Assembly (NCBI GenBank): GCA_021414085.1
Contig: JAIOPC010000005.1
Span: 1-64,000, forward strand
Length of the DNA: 64,000 bases
Direction: 5' to 3'
Source of the DNA: Actinomycetes bacterium
Lineage (GTDB): Bacteria > Actinomycetota > Acidimicrobiia > Acidimicrobiales > Ilumatobacteraceae
The notes below the pieces were generated by a model, which worked only from the letters and a program-made list of their open reading frames with translations, ran no database searches and was not told where the DNA came from. Below, one piece after another: positions 48,318 to 56,605 of the stretch. A program made the position numbers and the translations under genes. Position 1 is the stretch's first letter; the number at the start of each line of letters is the position of its first letter.

Positions 48318-49628
48318 TTAGGTCTCCAGCAGCAGCGACTTTTGAACCTTGCCCATTGCGTTGCGCGGCAATTCGTCGACGAAGCGGATCTCGCGTGGGC
48401 GCTTATGAACGGAGAGCGAATCGGCGACATGCGCGATCAGCGTCGATTCGTCGACCGAAGCGTTGACCACCACGAAGGCAACTACTCGCTGGCCGAGGTC
48501 GTCGTCGGCCACTCCAACTACGGCTGCTTCGCTCACCGCCGGGTGACTCAGCAACGACGTCTCGACTTCGCCGGCGCCGACCTTGTACCCGCCAGTCTTA
48601 ACTATGTCGATCGACGTGCGCCCGACAATGCGATGGAAACCGCCTTCGTCAATGACCGCCGTGTCGCCCGTTCGGAACCATTCGCCGTCGAAGGACGCCG
48701 ATGTCGCGGCCGGTTGGTTGAGGTAACAGTCGAACATCGTGCTCCCCGCGATGCACAACTCGCCCATCGTTTCGCCGTCGTGCGGCAGATCTGTGCCGGA
48801 ATCATCGATCAACCGCGACCGCACGCCGTTGATCGGTACTCCGACCCAACCCGCCCGCCGCTCACCATCGGCGCGTGTGCTGATCGTGATCAGCGTCTCG
48901 GTCATGCCATAGCGCTCGACCGGTGCGTGGCCGGTGAGCGCGCGTAGCGACTCGAACACCGGAACTGGCAACGGTGCGCTCCCCGAAACCAGGAGGCGCG
49001 CGGCCGCCAACTCGCGTGCGGCAGAGGACTCGGCGCACACGCGGGACCACACGGTGGGCACGCCGAAGTACAACGAGCCGCGCGCTGCCGCATAGGCGGA
49101 CGGAGTCGGCTTGCCCGTGTGGACCAAGCTGCAGCCGACGCGCAACGCGCCCAGCACTCCAAGCACGAGCCCATGCACGTGGAACAGCGGCAGCCCGTGC
49201 ACAAGTACGTCGTCAGCGGTCCACCCCCACGCGTCGGCGAGTCCGTCGATCCCCGCGTTGATTGCTCGCCGCGACAACATCACACCCTTCGGCGCCCCGG
49301 TTGTGCCCGAGGTGTACATGATCAGCGCCGGCGCCGACTCGTCCGGTTCGGGCAGTCGTACCGCATTCGGGCCACCCCGTCCTGGCAAAGGCAGCGCACC
49401 CGAGTCGCGCAGCATGTGTCCCCGCTCGGTCGGGCCCGCATCGGGGGGAACCGGAACCACGGCGACGCCAGCGGCCATCCCCGCCATCACCGCGACGACA
49501 GTGTCGAGCGTCGGTGTGGCGTCGATCGCAACGGGTCCGCAACCGACCAGCCGAACGGCAAGGGCATGCGCTCGGTCGTCGAGGTCGTCGCGGGAGATTG
49601 ATTCGCCCGCGATGGAGATAGTCGTCAC
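48318..49628 (-). CDS. Malonyl/methylmalonyl-CoA synthetase-like ligase (MatB/ACSF3 type)
   Basis: A 436-residue ANL enzyme: IMYTSGTTGAPKGVMLSRRA (ATP loop), HGLPLFHVHGLVLGVLGALRVG, YGMTETLITIST, and the MatB-like hinge GRTSIDIVKTGGYKVGAGEVE, ending with the catalytic Lys in NAMGKVQKSLLLE. It is about 60-70 residues shorter at the N-terminus than typical MatB. The GTG at 49628 overlaps the TetR stop (GTGA), fixing the start. The likely reaction is CoA activation of malonate or methylmalonate; substrate not certain. Confidence 0.85.
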   Translation of the reverse strand: MTTISIAGESISRDDLDDRAHALAVRLVGCGPVAIDATPTLDTVVAVMAGMAAGVAVVPVPPDAGPTERGHMLRDSGALPLPGRGGPNAVRLPEPDESAPALIMYTSGTTGAPKGVMLSRRAINAGIDGLADAWGWTADDVLVHGLPLFHVHGLVLGVLGALRVGCSLVHTGKPTPSAYAAARGSLYFGVPTVWSRVCAESSAARELAAARLLVSGSAPLPVPVFESLRALTGHAPVERYGMTETLITISTRADGERRAGWVGVPINGVRSRLIDDSGTDLPHDGETMGELCIAGSTMFDCYLNQPAATSASFDGEWFRTGDTAVIDEGGFHRIVGRTSIDIVKTGGYKVGAGEVETSLLSHPAVSEAAVVGVADDDLGQRVVAFVVVNASVDESTLIAHVADSLSVHKRPREIRFVDELPRNAMGKVQKSLLLET

Positions 49629-50218
49629 GACCGCGCTTCCGCAATCGTGCGGTCTAGTCGCTTTAAGAAGTCCTCCATCGCCTTCGTCAGACGCTGCCGA
49701 TCGCCGGTCGCGAAAAGGTCCATCACCAAGCCAGTGAACGTCGCCTTGGCCAACGACCCTTCCGAAACGGCACGAGCGCGCGGCACTCCCTCCCGCTCGA
49801 GGCGCTGCTCGACGTCGTGGCGCCACACACCGATCTGATCGGCGCGCACATCACCGGCCAGACCGGTGACGCTGGCATCGAGCGTCGCCGCCTCGTAGTT
49901 CAGCCGCACAAGGGCGAGGTTCGCAGGTGATTCGTTCATCCACTTCCACCAGCGGCGATACATCGCGACCTGGGTCATGCGCGGCGTGCGCGCCAACCAA
50001 CACTCCTGCACGGCCAACTGCTGCTCGATCCCGCGAGCGACCGCTGCTGTCAGCAACTCCTCCTTGGAGCCGAAGTGATGCACAAGGCGATTGATGCTGA
50101 CATCCAGAGTCGCCGCCATCGGCCGCAGTGTCGCCTGCGCCAGTCCATGTTGCGCCAGATACTGGACTATCCGATCGAGCAATTCCTGACGACGCTCGAG
50201 ATCGGGTGTCCTCGCCAC
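49625..50218 (-). CDS. TetR family transcriptional regulator
   Basis: A 197-residue TetR regulator: N-terminal helix-turn-helix (RRQELLDRIVQYLAQHGLAQATLRPMAATLDVSINRLVHHFGSKEELL, positions 8-55) and a helical ligand domain (LLTAAVARGIEQQL onward). It starts 20 nt after hutI stops and overlaps the MatB-like gene, so it is co-transcribed with one or both. It may control the ligase, the hut operon, or be autonomous. Confidence 0.9.
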   Translation of the reverse strand: MARTPDLERRQELLDRIVQYLAQHGLAQATLRPMAATLDVSINRLVHHFGSKEELLTAAVARGIEQQLAVQECWLARTPRMTQVAMYRRWWKWMNESPANLALVRLNYEAATLDASVTGLAGDVRADQIGVWRHDVEQRLEREGVPRARAVSEGSLAKATFTGLVMDLFATGDRQRLTKAMEDFLKRLDRTIAEARS

Positions 50219-50238: not shown

Positions 50239-51411
50239 CTACACAGAAGGCGCGACGACAGTCACGCCCGCCTCAATCACGCTGTGAATCAGCGGCACAC
50301 CGGGGCGATAGATCAGGTGCCTGTATGAGGGCGCGTCCAAAATCACCAGGTCGGCGCGCTTACCGGCAGCGATCACACCAACATCGCTGCGCCGCAATGC
50401 GCGCGCACCGCCCAGAGTCGCCGCCATCAGCGCCTCTTCCGCAGTCATGCGCAGGTCGCGTACGGCAAGAGCAATACAGAACGACATTGAGGTGGTGTAG
50501 CTGCTCCCGGGATTGCAGTTCGTCGCCAGCGCGACGTTGACACCGGCATCGATCGCCCGACGCGCGTCGGGATACGGCTGCCGTGTGCTGAAGTCGGTGG
50601 CCGGCAGAAAGGTCGCGATCGTGTCGCTGGCCGCCAGCGCGGCGATGTCGGCATCGGTGAGGAATGTGCAGTGGTCGGCGGAGGCACAACCCATCTCGAC
50701 CGCGAGCTGCACACCGGGACCGGGGCCGAGTTGGTTCGCGTGTAGTCGAGCGCCGAGCCCTGCGGCCTTGCCTGCAGCTAGCACGGCGCGGCACTGATCG
50801 GCATCGAACGCACCAACCTCGCAGAACGCGTCGATCCAGCGCGAGTGTGGCGCGGCGGCGGCGAGCATGTCGGTGCATACGTGGTGCACGTAGTCGTCCG
50901 TGCGATCGCCGAACTCGGCCGGCACCACATGCGCACCCAGGAATGTGGTGTCGTTACTGAATTGCTCGGCAACTTGCAGGCAACGTGTCTCATTAGCCGC
51001 GTCGAGGCCGTATCCCGACTTGATCTCGACCGTGGTGATACCGGCGCGGCGCGCCTCCTCGCGGCGGCCATTCGTCAGACCGGCCAAATCCGCGGTCGAC
51101 GCAGCACGCGTTGCAGCAACCGACGTTTGGATGCCACCAGCCGAATACGGCTGGCCAGCCATGCGTGCCGCGAACTCATCGCTGCGATCGCCAGCGAATA
51201 CGAGGTGTGTGTGACTATCTACAAAGCCGGGAATGACGCAGCGGTCGGACGCGTCGATGGTTTCGTCGGCAATCTGACCGGCAGGGCCAACGCTGACGAC
51301 GACGCCGCGGTCGAAAACAATCGAAGCGTCGCGGAGGATGCCGAGCGGCCCCTCCCCCAGTGCTCGGTCGTTGGTGACGAGCAGCCCAATGTTGTCGACG
51401 ACGACACTCAC
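50239..51411 (-). CDS. hutI: Imidazolonepropionase HutI
   Basis: HutI opens the imidazolone ring to give N-formimino-L-glutamate. The 390-residue metal-dependent amidohydrolase has the zinc motif [75 protein letters not shown] and [12 protein letters not shown]. The GTG start overlaps the hutF stop by 4 nt, so it is coupled to hutF. Confidence 0.95.
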
Positions 51412-52757
51412 GTGTCCATCAACTCCGTGATCGTCGCGTGCAGCTCGCGTGCAACATCAATGCGCACGTGACTGCCGTCGGCGACGACCACTTGGCCCGC
51501 TACGACCGAGTGATGCACATCAGCCGCGGCACCTGCAAACACCGCAGTCTCCAGTGCCGACGACGCCGGGCTCCCAGCGGTGCGCACGGTGTCGAGGCGC
51601 AGCGTGATGAAGTCAGCCAAGCGACCGGGTGCGAGTTCCCCAGCTTCGTCCCAGCCCAACGAACGTTGTCCATTCGCGCAGGTCGCCGTCAGCAGCGATG
51701 GAGCGTTGTGACTGCCACGAACCTGAGTCGCCAACCGTTCGTGCAACTCGATCCCGCGCGCCTCAACGAACAGGTCGACCACGGCCTGCGAGTCGCTGCC
51801 AACAGCCAGCCGTGCGCCTTCGTTGCGCAAAGCGAGCGCGGAGCCAATTCCATCGGCGAGGTCGCGCTCGGTTGTCGGGCACAGACAGACCGTGCATTGC
51901 GCGCGGCCGAGTTGCCCAAAGTCGGCACCGGCAAGATGTGTTGCATGCACAGCTGTAAACGACCTCTTGATCGCGCCGTGTTCACCGAGCAGTGCCGTTG
52001 GCGTCAGGCCGTACGCCGCGATGCACTGTTCGTTCTCGACCTGCTGCTCGGACACATGTGCGTGCAGCGGCAGCTTCCGCTCCGCCGCCCAGGCCGCAAC
52101 CTTTTCAATACTCGCCGCATCGACGGCGCGCACCGAGTGCACCGCGGCACCAGGTCGGCAGGTCGCCGACGTCAGTGCGCCGGCCGCGTCAGCGCGCACG
52201 CCCCAGGCGTCGACGTTGCCGTCGCTGAAACGTTGCTGCGCCTCGTTCAACTCACTATGGCCACTTGCGGCCAACCCGCCGTGCAAATAGCAGCAGTCGA
52301 GCAACGTGATCCGGATACCTGCCTCCGCCGCGGCGGCCGCGAGCGCGGCGCTCATCGCGTTCGGGTCGTTATAAGCCGCGCCACCGACGTCGTGGTGCAG
52401 ATAGTGGAACTCACCGACGGAGGTGATGCCCGCCAGCGCCATCTCGCCGTACACCGCACGGGCCAAACGGAAGTACGTATCGGGCTGCAGTTTGCTGGAC
52501 GCGGCGTACACAACTTCGCGCCACGTCCAGAACGATCCGCTGCCAACCTGCGTGCGGCCACGTAGGGCGCGATGGAATGCATGGCTGTGCGCGTTCGCGA
52601 GGCCGGGCAACGTCAGGCCGGCCAGCCGGGTCGCATCGCTCGGGCACTCCATGCCCCTTGTGACCGACGCAATGCGATCACCAGCAACGTCAATCAGAAC
52701 GCCAGCACTCGCTTGGTCGCCGCTCACCCATGCGAGTTCGCACCAGTAGCGAGCCAC
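51408..52757 (-). CDS. hutF: Formimidoylglutamate deiminase HutF
   Basis: HutF deiminates N-formimino-L-glutamate to N-formyl-L-glutamate plus ammonia. The 449-residue amidohydrolase shows [28 protein letters not shown]-type sequence ([16 protein letters not shown]), the [14 protein letters not shown] zinc His region, VHATHL and [17 protein letters not shown]. The GTG start at 52757 abuts the def stop with no gap. Its product still carries a formyl group that HutG removes in other bacteria; no hutG is present here. Confidence 0.94.
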
Positions 52758-53333
52758 TTACGAGCCAACCCGCTCGACGAACGCTGTGATTCGTTCGACG
52801 AAGGCCGCGCGGTGAAACCGTTCGAACTGATCCCACGTGGTCAAGCTGGTCGTGTCGTGAACCCGGTCGAGGAAAAGCAAACCATCGAGATGATCGCACT
52901 CGTGTTGAAACGTTCCCGACTTCAGCCCGCGCCAGATCTCGTCGTGCTCGCCCCCGTCGCGATCCCAGAAGCGCACGCGAACGTTGACGAAGCGCATCAC
53001 GTTGCCGCGCATGTTTGGCACGGAGAGGCAACCCTCGTTGATCTCGACCAACTCGTCGTCGAGCGGTTCGATCACAGGGTTGACCACCACCGTGAGCGGA
53101 ATCGGCGGCTTGTACGGATAGCGGGGGTTCTTGGTGACTTCGATGGTGGCGATACGCACTAGTTCGCCGATCTGTGGCGCCGCGATGCCTGCGCCGTTGG
53201 CGGCGTGCATCGTGTCGATCAGATCGTCGATCAGTTGCTGCATGGCGCCCGAAGCAAGTTCATCGCGCGTGATCTCGCGCGACCGTTCACGCAGCAAAGG
53301 GTTCCCGACGTGCAGAATCTCGCGGACAGCCAC
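52758..53333 (-). CDS. def: Peptide-deformylase family protein inside the hut operon
   Basis: A 191-residue iron/zinc deformylase with all three motifs: GAGIAAPQIG (47-56), EGCLS (100-104, metal Cys 102) and QHECDHLDG (143-151, metal His 144 and His 148, catalytic Glu 145). It starts 3 nt after hutU stops and ends directly against the hutF start, so it is embedded in the operon. Normally it removes N-formyl from nascent Met peptides. Here it may act on N-formylglutamate or formate-bearing peptides; that is inference. A second, housekeeping def elsewhere in the genome would be expected if it has been recruited. Confidence 0.9.
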   Translation of the reverse strand: MAVREILHVGNPLLRERSREITRDELASGAMQQLIDDLIDTMHAANGAGIAAPQIGELVRIATIEVTKNPRYPYKPPIPLTVVVNPVIEPLDDELVEINEGCLSVPNMRGNVMRFVNVRVRFWDRDGGEHDEIWRGLKSGTFQHECDHLDGLLFLDRVHDTTSLTTWDQFERFHRAAFVERITAFVERVGS

Positions 53334-53336
53334 GGC

Positions 53337-55007
53337 TCAACTCTCGCGCATGGGTAGTCGCACGCCTCGTTCGTCGGCGACGTCGATGGCCCGCTGATAC
53401 CCAGCGTCGGCGTGACGAATCACACCCATGCCCGGGTCGGTGGTCAGTACCCGCTCGAGCTTTTGCGCGGCCAGGTCGGTTCCATCCGCAAGGGCGACCA
53501 TGCCGGCATGAATGCTGCGTCCGATACCGACGCCGCCTCCGTGGTGGATGCTCACCCAGGTGGCCCCGCTCGACGTGTTGACCAACGCGTTCAGCAGCGG
53601 CCAGTCAGCGATCGCGTCGGAACCGTCGAGCATCGATTCCGTCTCGCGGTACGGCGACGCAACGGAGCCGCTATCGAGGTGGTCGCGCCCGATGACGATT
53701 GGCGCCTTCAACTCGCCGCGGCGCACCATCTCGTTGAAGCGCAAGCCGAGGCGGTGGCGTTCGCCGTAGCCGAGCCAACAGATGCGCGCTGGTAGACCTT
53801 GGAACGCAACCCGTTCGCTGGCCATCTTGATCCACCGGTGCAGGTGTGCATCGTCGGGAAACTCTTCCAGCACGGCACGGTCGGTGGCAGCGATGTCGGC
53901 CGGATCGCCACTGAGCGCGACCCAACGGAACGGCCCCTTGCCTTCGCAGAACAGCGGACGAATGTAAGCGGGCAGGAAGCCTGGATAATCGAAGGCACGC
54001 TCGAAGCCGCCCAGCTTGGCTTCAGTGCGCAGGCTGTTGCCGTAGTCGAAGACCTCGCTGCCCTTATCGAGGAAACCGACCATCGCCCTGCAGTGCGCAG
54101 CCATGCTCTCGCGACTGCGCCGAATCAACTCCTGCGGATTCGCCTTGGCCATCTCGGCGGTGGCTTCCGGCGTGAGATCGGCTGGCACATAACTCAACGG
54201 ATCGTGCGCGCTTGTCTGATCGGTGACGATGTCGGCCGGAAAATCCATCTCCAGCAGTCGCGGGAACAAGACCGCGGCGTTACCGACAAGCCCGACCGAG
54301 AGCGGACGCTTCTCGTCGCGCGCTCGAATGCAGCGCGCCACCGCATCGTCGAGTGAGTCGGCAACTTCATCGAGGTAGCGCGTCTCGACGCGGCGTTGCA
54401 CGCGCCAGGCATCGACATCGATACACAGCGCCACTCCATCGTTCATCGTCACCGATAGCGGCTGCGCGCCACCCATGCCACCCAGGCCAGCCGTCAAGGT
54501 GATGGTGCCCGCGAGCGTGCCGTTGTAACCAGGCTTGTTGAATTTGCGGCGGCCGATCTCGGCGAAACATTCGTAGGTGCCCTGCAGGATTCCCTGCGTG
54601 CCGATGTAGATCCACGAGCCGGCCGTCATCTGGCCGTACATCGTCAATCCCATCGCTTCGAGGCGGCGGAACTCGTCCCAATTCCCCCACTCGGGCACAA
54701 GGTTGCTGTTCGCCAACAACACGCGCGGTGCCCACTCGTGCGTGCGGAACACGCCAACCGGTTTCCCCGACTGCACCAACATCGTTTCGTCTGCCTTCAG
54801 CGTGGTGAGGGTGCGCGCCATCGCATCGAACGCGTCCCAACTGCGCGCGGCGCGGCCAGTGCCGCCGTAGACGACAAGGTCGTCGGGACGTTCAGCAACC
54901 TCTGGGTCGAGGTTGTTGTGCATCATGCGGTAGGCGGCCTCTTGCGGCCAACCGAGACAATTGAGATCCGTGCCGCGCGCGGCACGAACGGGGCGAGCAC
55001 CCAACAT
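53337..55007 (-). CDS. hutU: Urocanate hydratase HutU
   Basis: HutU adds water to urocanate with NAD+ as electrophile, giving imidazolonepropionate. The 556-residue protein has [39 protein letters not shown], the NAD-binding [31 protein letters not shown] and [11 protein letters not shown] near the end. The ATG at 55007 shares one base with the hutH stop (TGATG). The frame further upstream is shadow of hutH. Confidence 0.97.
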
Positions 55008-56605
55008 CAGAGGACCTCCATCGGACCAATTGCAGCTTCGACGGCATCGAGCACGATGCCGTCGGCGAGTAAGCGTTCGGCGGCACGTAAATCGGGCGAC
55101 AACCAACGATCGACAGTCGGGCCTGCCACCCGCGCGCGCAGCGCATGGACCGCTGCGGCAGTCGCCGGTGACGGCGAAAGTGGCCCGCGCAGGTCCAGTG
55201 CCGCAGCGGCGCACACGAGCTCAACCGCGAGCACACGACGCAGGTTGTCGACGGACCGCCGCAACTTGCGCGCCGCCGCCCATCCGTTGGAGACGTGGTC
55301 TTCTTGCATCGCGCTGGTCGGCATGCTCTGGACGCTGGCCGGCACGGCCAACCGCTGATTCTCCAACGCGATCGCAACTTGCGTGTAGTGCGCGATCATC
55401 ATGCCGCTGTTCACGCCGGCGTCGGGCGAAAGGAATGGCGGCAGCCCTTGCGAGCGAGCGACGTCGAGCATTCGATCGGTGCGCCGCTCGGCGATCGCCG
55501 ATACTTCGCTGGCTGCGATCGCAAGAAAGTCGCACACCATTGCCAACGGCGCACCATGAAAGTTGCCGCAACTCTCCACGCGGCCGTCGGGCAGGATCAT
55601 CGGGTTGTCAATCGCGGCGCGTAGTTCTCGCTCGGCAATCGTGCGCGCATACGCAACGGTGTCGAGCGCGGCACCGTGAACTTGCGGCGTGCACCGCAGC
55701 GAATAGGCATCCTGCACGCGCGTATCGCCCTCGCGATGGCTGGCAACGATCGCCGAGTCGGCGAGCAAGCGGGTGAGATTGCGGGCGCTGATGGCTTGGC
55801 CAACCTGCGGTCGCAGCGCCTGCAAATCGGCGGCGAAGGCGCGGTCGGTGCCGAGCAAACCTTCCACCGTCATCGCTGCCGTGACATCGGCGATTCGCAT
55901 CAGCGCGTTGAGGTCGTGCAATGCCAAACACAGCATGCCCAAGATGCCATCGGTGCCGTTGATCAGCGCCAGACCTTCCTTGGCGCGCAGCACGACCGGC
56001 TGCAGCCCGGCATCAGCGAAGGCCTGCGTCGTGGGTTGCCGCTCCCCCTCGCGGGTCCACACCTCGCCCTCGCCAATGAGCGCAAGCGCGCAATGACTCA
56101 ATGGAGCGAGGTCACCGCTCGCTCCCAGCGAACCGTGCTCGTACACGACCGGCGTGATGCCCGCGTTGAGCAGCGCTGTCTGCCGGTCGACCAGCTCCGG
56201 ACGAACTCCCGAGTACGCCAACGCCAGGCTGCGGGCGCGCAACAGCAACATCGCCCGTACCACGTCCGCCTCGATCGGGTCGCCCATCCCAGTCGCGTGC
56301 GACCGTACGAGTGCGACCTGCAACTCGGCAGTGCGATGCGCCGGAATCGCCTTGTCGGCGAGCGAACCGAACCCCGTGTTGACGCCATACACGGGCTCGT
56401 CGCCAGCGACAAAGCCATCGACCAGTGCGGCCGATGCTTGCATCGCGGCACGAGCCTTCACGCCTAGGTAGACACTGACGCCGCTGCGGGCGACACCTAC
56501 GACTTGGGCGAGCGTGACGCCGTCGCGGCCGAGTTCGACGGCCGGGGCAGCAGCTGGTGCTGCGCCCCGGCCACCAGTAGAACCTGAGTCAGAAGCTTGA
56601 TCCAT
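55007..56605 (-). CDS. hutH: Histidine ammonia-lyase HutH
   Basis: HutH removes ammonia from histidine to give urocanate. The protein of about 532 residues has the self-forming MIO prosthetic group motif in [15 protein letters not shown] (Ala-Ser-Gly 162-164), preceded by [13 protein letters not shown], and later [16 protein letters not shown] and [10 protein letters not shown]. The N-terminal 20 residues are Ala/Gly/Pro-rich and probably not conserved. The ATG at 56605 is listed; a GTG at 56626 is also open. It is the first gene of the hut operon. Confidence 0.95.

Follow-up and report, generated by a model that had tools for sequence, protein, structure and literature searches.

Which enzyme removes the formyl group from N-formyl-L-glutamate in a histidine-utilization (hut) operon that has no hutG, and could a gene that reads as a peptide deformylase take that place? 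The question is raised by a stretch of 64,000 nucleotides (hereafter the window) from an Ilumatobacteraceae genome (Actinomycetota; Acidimicrobiia), contig JAIOPC010000005.1 of assembly GCA_021414085.1, in which a deformylase gene (def) is enclosed between hutU and hutF. The comparisons presented here make it probable that the product, hereafter the hut-linked Def, is an enzyme of the deformylase fold which takes over from HutG the hydrolysis of N-formyl-L-glutamate, a reaction deduced from those comparisons. The genes of the operon are:

55007-56605, minus strand: hutH, histidine ammonia-lyase (TIGR01225, 633.5 bits, cut-off 539.15; PF00221)
53337-55007, minus strand: hutU, urocanate hydratase (TIGR01228, 908.5 bits, cut-off 375)
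52758-53333, minus strand: hut-linked def (191 amino acids), proposed N-formyl-L-glutamate deformylase (PF01327; branch in the tree; co-occurrence with HutF)
51408-52757, minus strand: hutF, formimidoylglutamate deiminase (NF006681, 571 bits, cut-off 362; TIGR02022, 436.8 bits, cut-off 413.05)
50239-51411, minus strand: hutI, imidazolonepropionase (TIGR01224, 363.9 bits, cut-off 298.15)

The recomputed coordinates agree exactly with the gene order, strand and spacings of the first-pass annotation, a short note made from the letters of the window: -1 nt between hutH and hutU, 3 nt between hutU and def, 0 nt between def and hutF and -4 nt between hutF and hutI. The ATG of hutU thus shares one nucleotide with the stop codon of hutH, def abuts hutF, and hutF and hutI overlap by 4 nt. 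HutH, HutU, HutI and HutF all score above their NCBIfam cut-offs, as in histidine utilization of the HutF type, and since these cut-offs are curated, HutF can be expected to make N-formyl-L-glutamate, its product in the known pathway. The hut-linked Def is a full-length member of its family (PF01327, 149 bits, cut-off 22.8; TIGR00079, 112.5 bits, cut-off 103.95), it matches PF01327 only and not the HutG family PF05013 in the profile search, and it does keep the three deformylase motifs (GAGIAAPQ, EGCLS and QHECDH) that had been read in it.

The two genome searches proposed in the first-pass annotation, for hutG and for a second def, were both carried out. No match to PF05013 was found by profile search in the 3.2 Mb assembly, which is rated 97.3% complete, so that a missed hutG is possible for the source genome taken alone. 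PF01327 genes number two, the hut-linked def and one on contig 9, and their proteins are about 32% identical. The gene on contig 9 adjoins fmt, an arrangement that is usual, if not universal, for the housekeeping deformylase of translation; the hut-linked def is not beside fmt. The genome is therefore the reverse of the one that the annotation had set against its own reading, with a hutG elsewhere and a single def. A HutG concealed as an arginase-fold protein was considered and rejected: the sole match to PF00491 passes as an agmatinase (201 bits, cut-off 174.3), and as a formimidoylglutamase it stays under the cut-off (180.1 bits against 229.15).

Co-occurrence and linkage with hutF

Among 198 genomes of the class Acidimicrobiia, HutF (TIGR02022 at E < 1e-95; the next best match was at 3.4e-49) is present in 40 and the Def family (at least 260 bits on our profile A1) in 26, two genomes at about 145 bits (G179 and G068) being left out of the family count. 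All 26 family-bearing genomes fall within the 40 with HutF, and none of the 158 HutF-less genomes carries the family (Fisher p about 1e-22, uncorrected for relatedness). Eight family-level groups are represented among the 26 genomes, and in 24 of these genomes the family gene is inside the hut cluster. Every one of the 26 has at least two PF01327 genes, the second def adjoining fmt in all 15 genomes where it was fetched.

We also scanned a species-level collection (one genome per species), which yielded 121 Def relatives. Among the best 80 of these 121 loci, hut genes adjoin the Def gene in 52 and not in 28, a linkage that exceeds chance. The 52 hut-linked loci come under Actinomycetota titles, a few with species names implausible for metagenome bins; the 28 unlinked loci are Myxococcota or deltaproteobacterial, except L072, whose group is unstated. 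The hut-def loci show four arrangements, namely hutH-hutU-def-hutF-hutI, hutU-hutF-def-hutI, hutU-hutF-hutI-def-hutH and a bare hutF-def pair. For the pair, no other hut gene was matched in stretches of 12-13 kb (L117 and L125; L126 is a short contig), and there def stays with the very enzyme that makes N-formylglutamate.

These distributions bear on the alternative, also raised in the first-pass annotation, that def is an ordinary second peptide deformylase which landed in the hut operon by chance and acts on new proteins. The family does retain the catalytic residues and scores as peptide deformylase on the profile models; accessory copies are common, more than one deformylase being reported in nearly half of bacterial genomes (PMC12690207); 19 of the 158 HutF-less genomes of the class have two or three def genes, though none of the hut-linked family; and the unlinked relatives sit in other surroundings. 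This explanation is nonetheless unlikely, given that the family accompanies HutF in 26 of 26 genomes and is never found without it in the class sample, that the linkage survives four gene orders, that another def is at hand in all 26 genomes (beside fmt in the 15 fetched), and that the family has its own branch and its own changes in the substrate pocket, as described below.

The 14 HutF genomes of the class that lack the Def family are informative as to what else may stand beside hutF. In six of them (G187, G150, G146, G159, G182 and G014; loci L089, L093, L096, L098, L099 and L105) an M20 amidohydrolase gene is directly beside hutF, and no M20 match was found at any of the 24 hut-def loci. 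The slot beside hutF in the 40 HutF genomes thus holds Def or M20, never both, and in eight genomes neither within the region examined. Of these six hutF-adjacent M20 proteins four were scanned, and all four match NCBIfam allantoate amidohydrolase (PRK09290.1-4). An M20 protein (COG0624) was at one time listed in the SEED histidine subsystem as an "alternative form of N-formylglutamate deformylase"; like the hut-linked Def it is a candidate other than HutG, from a different family. In Table 3 of Gerdes et al. 2011 (PMC3223725), the COG0624 protein of Streptomyces avermitilis is listed with no deformylase activity detected, and the M20 genes found here may be of the same subfamily. The gene caller used on the relatives was a rough one that misses genes lying beneath long antisense frames, as happened to hutF and the M20 gene in L105, to hutF, hutI and the M20 gene in L096 and to hutU in L127.

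PF05013, the HutG family, was matched in 14 of the 198 genomes of the class, two of them Def-less HutF genomes (G146 and G150, both also with the M20 gene) and four of them family-bearing; 22 of the 26 family-bearing genomes and 34 of the 40 HutF genomes have no match.

Other genes were seen in or next to some clusters. Four relatives have a gene of about 210-300 codons between hutU and def (L003, 368-1282; L007, 5213-6004; L025; L037, from the cultured species Desertimonas flava), which by eye we take to be an iron- and oxoglutarate-dependent dioxygenase of the PhyH type; on this resemblance of the translations, the possibility that such a gene of about 800 bases is a HutG was rejected. Two Def-less relatives have a 349-codon gene between hutI and hutF (L090, 4995-6044; L112, 5454-6503). 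In the window, hutI is followed by genes for a TetR-type regulator and for an AMP-binding ligase (48318-50218), and similar genes lie near the cluster in several close relatives, a tetR-like gene being present in nine related loci (L004-L008, L010, L011, L024 and L027). The regulator gene, whose membership in the operon is putative, is:

49625-50218, minus strand: TetR-type regulator, 3' of hutI (PF00440)

Phylogeny, pocket residues and predicted structure

The phylogenetic comparison with housekeeping deformylases, which had likewise been called for, was made on 137 of 144 Def rows after short and identical rows were dropped. A supported branch (100/97) divides the tree. All the fmt-linked rows are on one side of it; on the other are the 71 hut-linked rows, the Def of G179 (L152), which sits on a long branch, and 27 unlinked rows that are Myxococcota except for a few whose group is not stated. 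The hut-linked proteins are thus placed apart from those linked to fmt. They are split in this tree, but a tree that joins them in a single hut clade is not excluded by the AU test (p-AU 0.62), and its likelihood is the higher of the two.

Residues were counted over the 98 family rows, 71 hut-linked and 27 unlinked. Two segments of the hut-linked Def carry several of the positions concerned:

53106-53123, minus strand: codons R71-Y72-P73-Y74-K75-P76, a loop (alignment and model)
52899-52916, minus strand: codons G140-T141-F142-Q143-H144-E145, of which G140 and T141 are changed, beside metal-binding motif 3 (alignment)

At the 13 motif positions that were examined, all 98 rows agree, and in the hut-linked Def the metal site (Cys102, His144 and His148) is unchanged and Glu145 is kept. 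Positions assigned by alignment to the substrate pocket differ. Ile44 of the Escherichia coli enzyme corresponds to Ala48 (Ala in 92 of 98 rows), Cys129 to Thr141 (Thr in 98 of 98) and Ile128 to Gly140 (Gly in 83 and Cys in 12 of 98); Ile128 and Cys129 we take, by numbering offset, to lie in or by the pocket. With its equivalents of I44 and C129 changed, the hut-linked Def appears to lack the hydrophobic methionine (S1') pocket of housekeeping deformylases, as defined by residues from PMC5071857 that were carried to the E. coli positions by alignment and offset. Such differences fall at positions that PMC3101196, PMC5071857 and PMC12690207 connect with the binding of ligands by other deformylases.

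The position of E. coli Glu87 (Asn99 here) separates the hut-linked from the unlinked rows, since 67 of the 71 former have Asn there and 26 of the 27 latter an aromatic residue, Tyr or Phe. At position 135, 68 of the 71 hut-linked rows have Arg and 28 of the 32 fmt-linked rows Asp. The enlarged loop reads RYPYKP, with Lys75, in 98 of 98 family rows, and RYPGTP or RYPDAP in the aligned solved relatives (Leptospira, Pseudomonas and Burkholderia); in the model it lies between two strands, 61-66 and 78-90. Its counterpart in the Leptospira deformylase reportedly occurs in open and closed forms.

The AlphaFold model of the hut-linked Def (mean pLDDT 94.9) has a predicted deformylase fold, and its best Foldseek match is chain B of 1sv2, the Leptospira interrogans deformylase (TM-score 0.97 over the target, rmsd 1.0 Å, 43% identity). 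With this enzyme and the class I type b deformylases of Pseudomonas and Burkholderia it shares the fold, the three motifs and the enlarged RYP loop, and it differs from them in Tyr-Lys at 74-75 (theirs Gly-Thr or Asp-Ala), in Thr141 (theirs Val), in Gly140 (theirs Ile or Arg) and in its location in a hut operon.

The conserved and the altered residues together bear on two further explanations. A bifunctional enzyme, which deformylates both N-formylglutamate and nascent proteins and is in the operon for the first task while keeping the second, would agree with the unchanged catalytic motifs, with the unchanged equivalent of Arg97 and with the fact that the nearest solved structures are peptide deformylases; we hold it improbable in view of the changed pocket (Ala48, Gly140 and Thr141) and of the separate def beside fmt. 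Protection against deformylase inhibitors, actinonin among them, has been suggested for Vibrio Def2 and for integron copies and is described as a role of accessory deformylases in PMC12690207; the hut-linked Def resembles the Def2 group in being a second deformylase besides the fmt-linked one. The signature described there is a Tyr at the Arg97 position that lowers actinonin binding. We rejected an inhibitor-resistance role because the equivalent of Arg97 is Arg in all 98 family rows; as this role would also leave the tie to HutF unexplained, there is very little chance that it is the right one. Among the fmt-linked rows of the class, by contrast, 16 of 32 carry Tyr at this position.

The proposed reaction and the evidence for and against it

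The substrate, what is done to it and the part played by the altered residues we infer as follows. HutH, HutU and HutI convert histidine to N-formimino-L-glutamate, from which HutF removes the imino nitrogen as ammonia, giving N-formyl-L-glutamate. The hut-linked Def would then hydrolyse the formyl group by means of the Cys102/His144/His148 metal site and Glu145, releasing glutamate and formate. Judging from the alignment, the altered pocket (Ala48, Asn99, Gly140 and Thr141) and the Lys75 of the family-specific loop may accommodate the side chain of glutamate and its free carboxylate, and the second def, adjoining fmt, would serve the deformylation linked to translation. The proposed reaction is the same as that of HutG (FGase; PF05013, TIGR02017), N-formyl-L-glutamate to L-glutamate and formate directly after HutF, in a different protein family. 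The suggestion of the first-pass annotation that def may replace HutG is thus supported by the co-occurrence with HutF (26 of 26), the gene orders, the separate branch and the pocket residues.

Several observations weigh against this replacement. In two of the 26 family-bearing genomes the family gene and hutF are on different contigs: in G133 the hutF contig ends just past hutI and the Def gene starts at base 314 of another contig, and in G098 the hutF contig is only 6.7 kb long and Def is elsewhere. The four family-bearing genomes with a PF05013 match are G019, G135, G050 and G139, of which only G019 was scored on TIGR02017; its FGase, the strongest of the four, was rejected as a true HutG at 46.8 bits (cut-off 278.75). 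On the same model the hutF-adjacent genes of two genomes from Myxococcota reach 341.3 bits and 228.5 bits, so that one of these two also stays under the cut-off. Known deformylases bind the peptide carbonyl that follows formyl-methionine, according to PMC3101196, and free N-formylglutamate has no such group. The claims made here for the pocket come from an alignment. Furthermore, in eight of the 14 Def-less HutF genomes the sequence read around hutF contains no adjoining Def or M20 gene, one of them being G107, where a contig end cuts hutF.

These eight genomes, together with the coverage of our searches for alternative enzymes in the source genome (PF05013 and PF00491), leave some room for another unrecognised enzyme elsewhere in the genome that does the missing step, def being merely co-regulated. 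Such an enzyme has a small probability in our view, since it would explain neither the tie between Def and HutF nor the exclusion between Def and M20 beside hutF, and the arginase-fold protein that was found passes the agmatinase cut-off.

The Myxococcota relatives add to the points against a general replacement of HutG. In 190 genomes of this phylum (HutF at E < 1e-60; family at least 260 bits, eight genomes at 201-234 bits being left out), the family is present in 27, and HutF in 23 of these 27 against 54 of the 163 others, relatedness ignored. No other hut gene or def was matched in 12 hutF regions of family-bearing genomes, and of the 23 genomes that have HutF along with the family, 19 also match PF05013 (15 at 180 bits or more). 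Given this frequency of PF05013 and the lack of hut linkage, the Def family need not replace HutG in Myxococcota. A strong FGase also tracks the family (16 of 27 family-bearing against 40 of 163 other genomes), so that the phylum is not used here as separate evidence of replacement. Both enrichments, of HutF and of FGase, may be due in part to genome size, and the Myxococcota copies may have another function or work alongside HutG.

A proposed new pairing in histidine breakdown

The hut-linked Def would bring a known fold to a known slot in a pathway; it is the proposed pairing that is new. In the full-text literature we found no paper that ties a peptide deformylase to N-formylglutamate or to histidine degradation, subscription papers being mostly outside reach. 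A 2025 survey of accessory deformylases (PMC12690207) has in its main text neither "formylglutamate" nor "Acidimicrob", and "histidine" occurs there once, in the title of a reference.

More broadly, we lean towards the idea that a branch of deformylases, marked by the YPYK loop and Thr141, has left translation and become a dedicated N-formyl-L-glutamate deformylase, besides HutG and the disputed M20 protein; the unlinked Myxococcota copies may do likewise or may act on other free N-formyl amino acids. With the hut-linked Def, a specific protein can be put forward for the step that histidine breakdown lacks in Acidimicrobiia, a class of environmental bacteria, where 34 of 40 HutF genomes are without a HutG-family match and 26 of 40 have Def. 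If the proposal is true, an enzyme family of translation would have been put to use in breaking down a free formyl amino acid, the annotation "peptide deformylase" in hut operons would name the wrong substrate, and deformylase inhibitors might also touch amino-acid metabolism.

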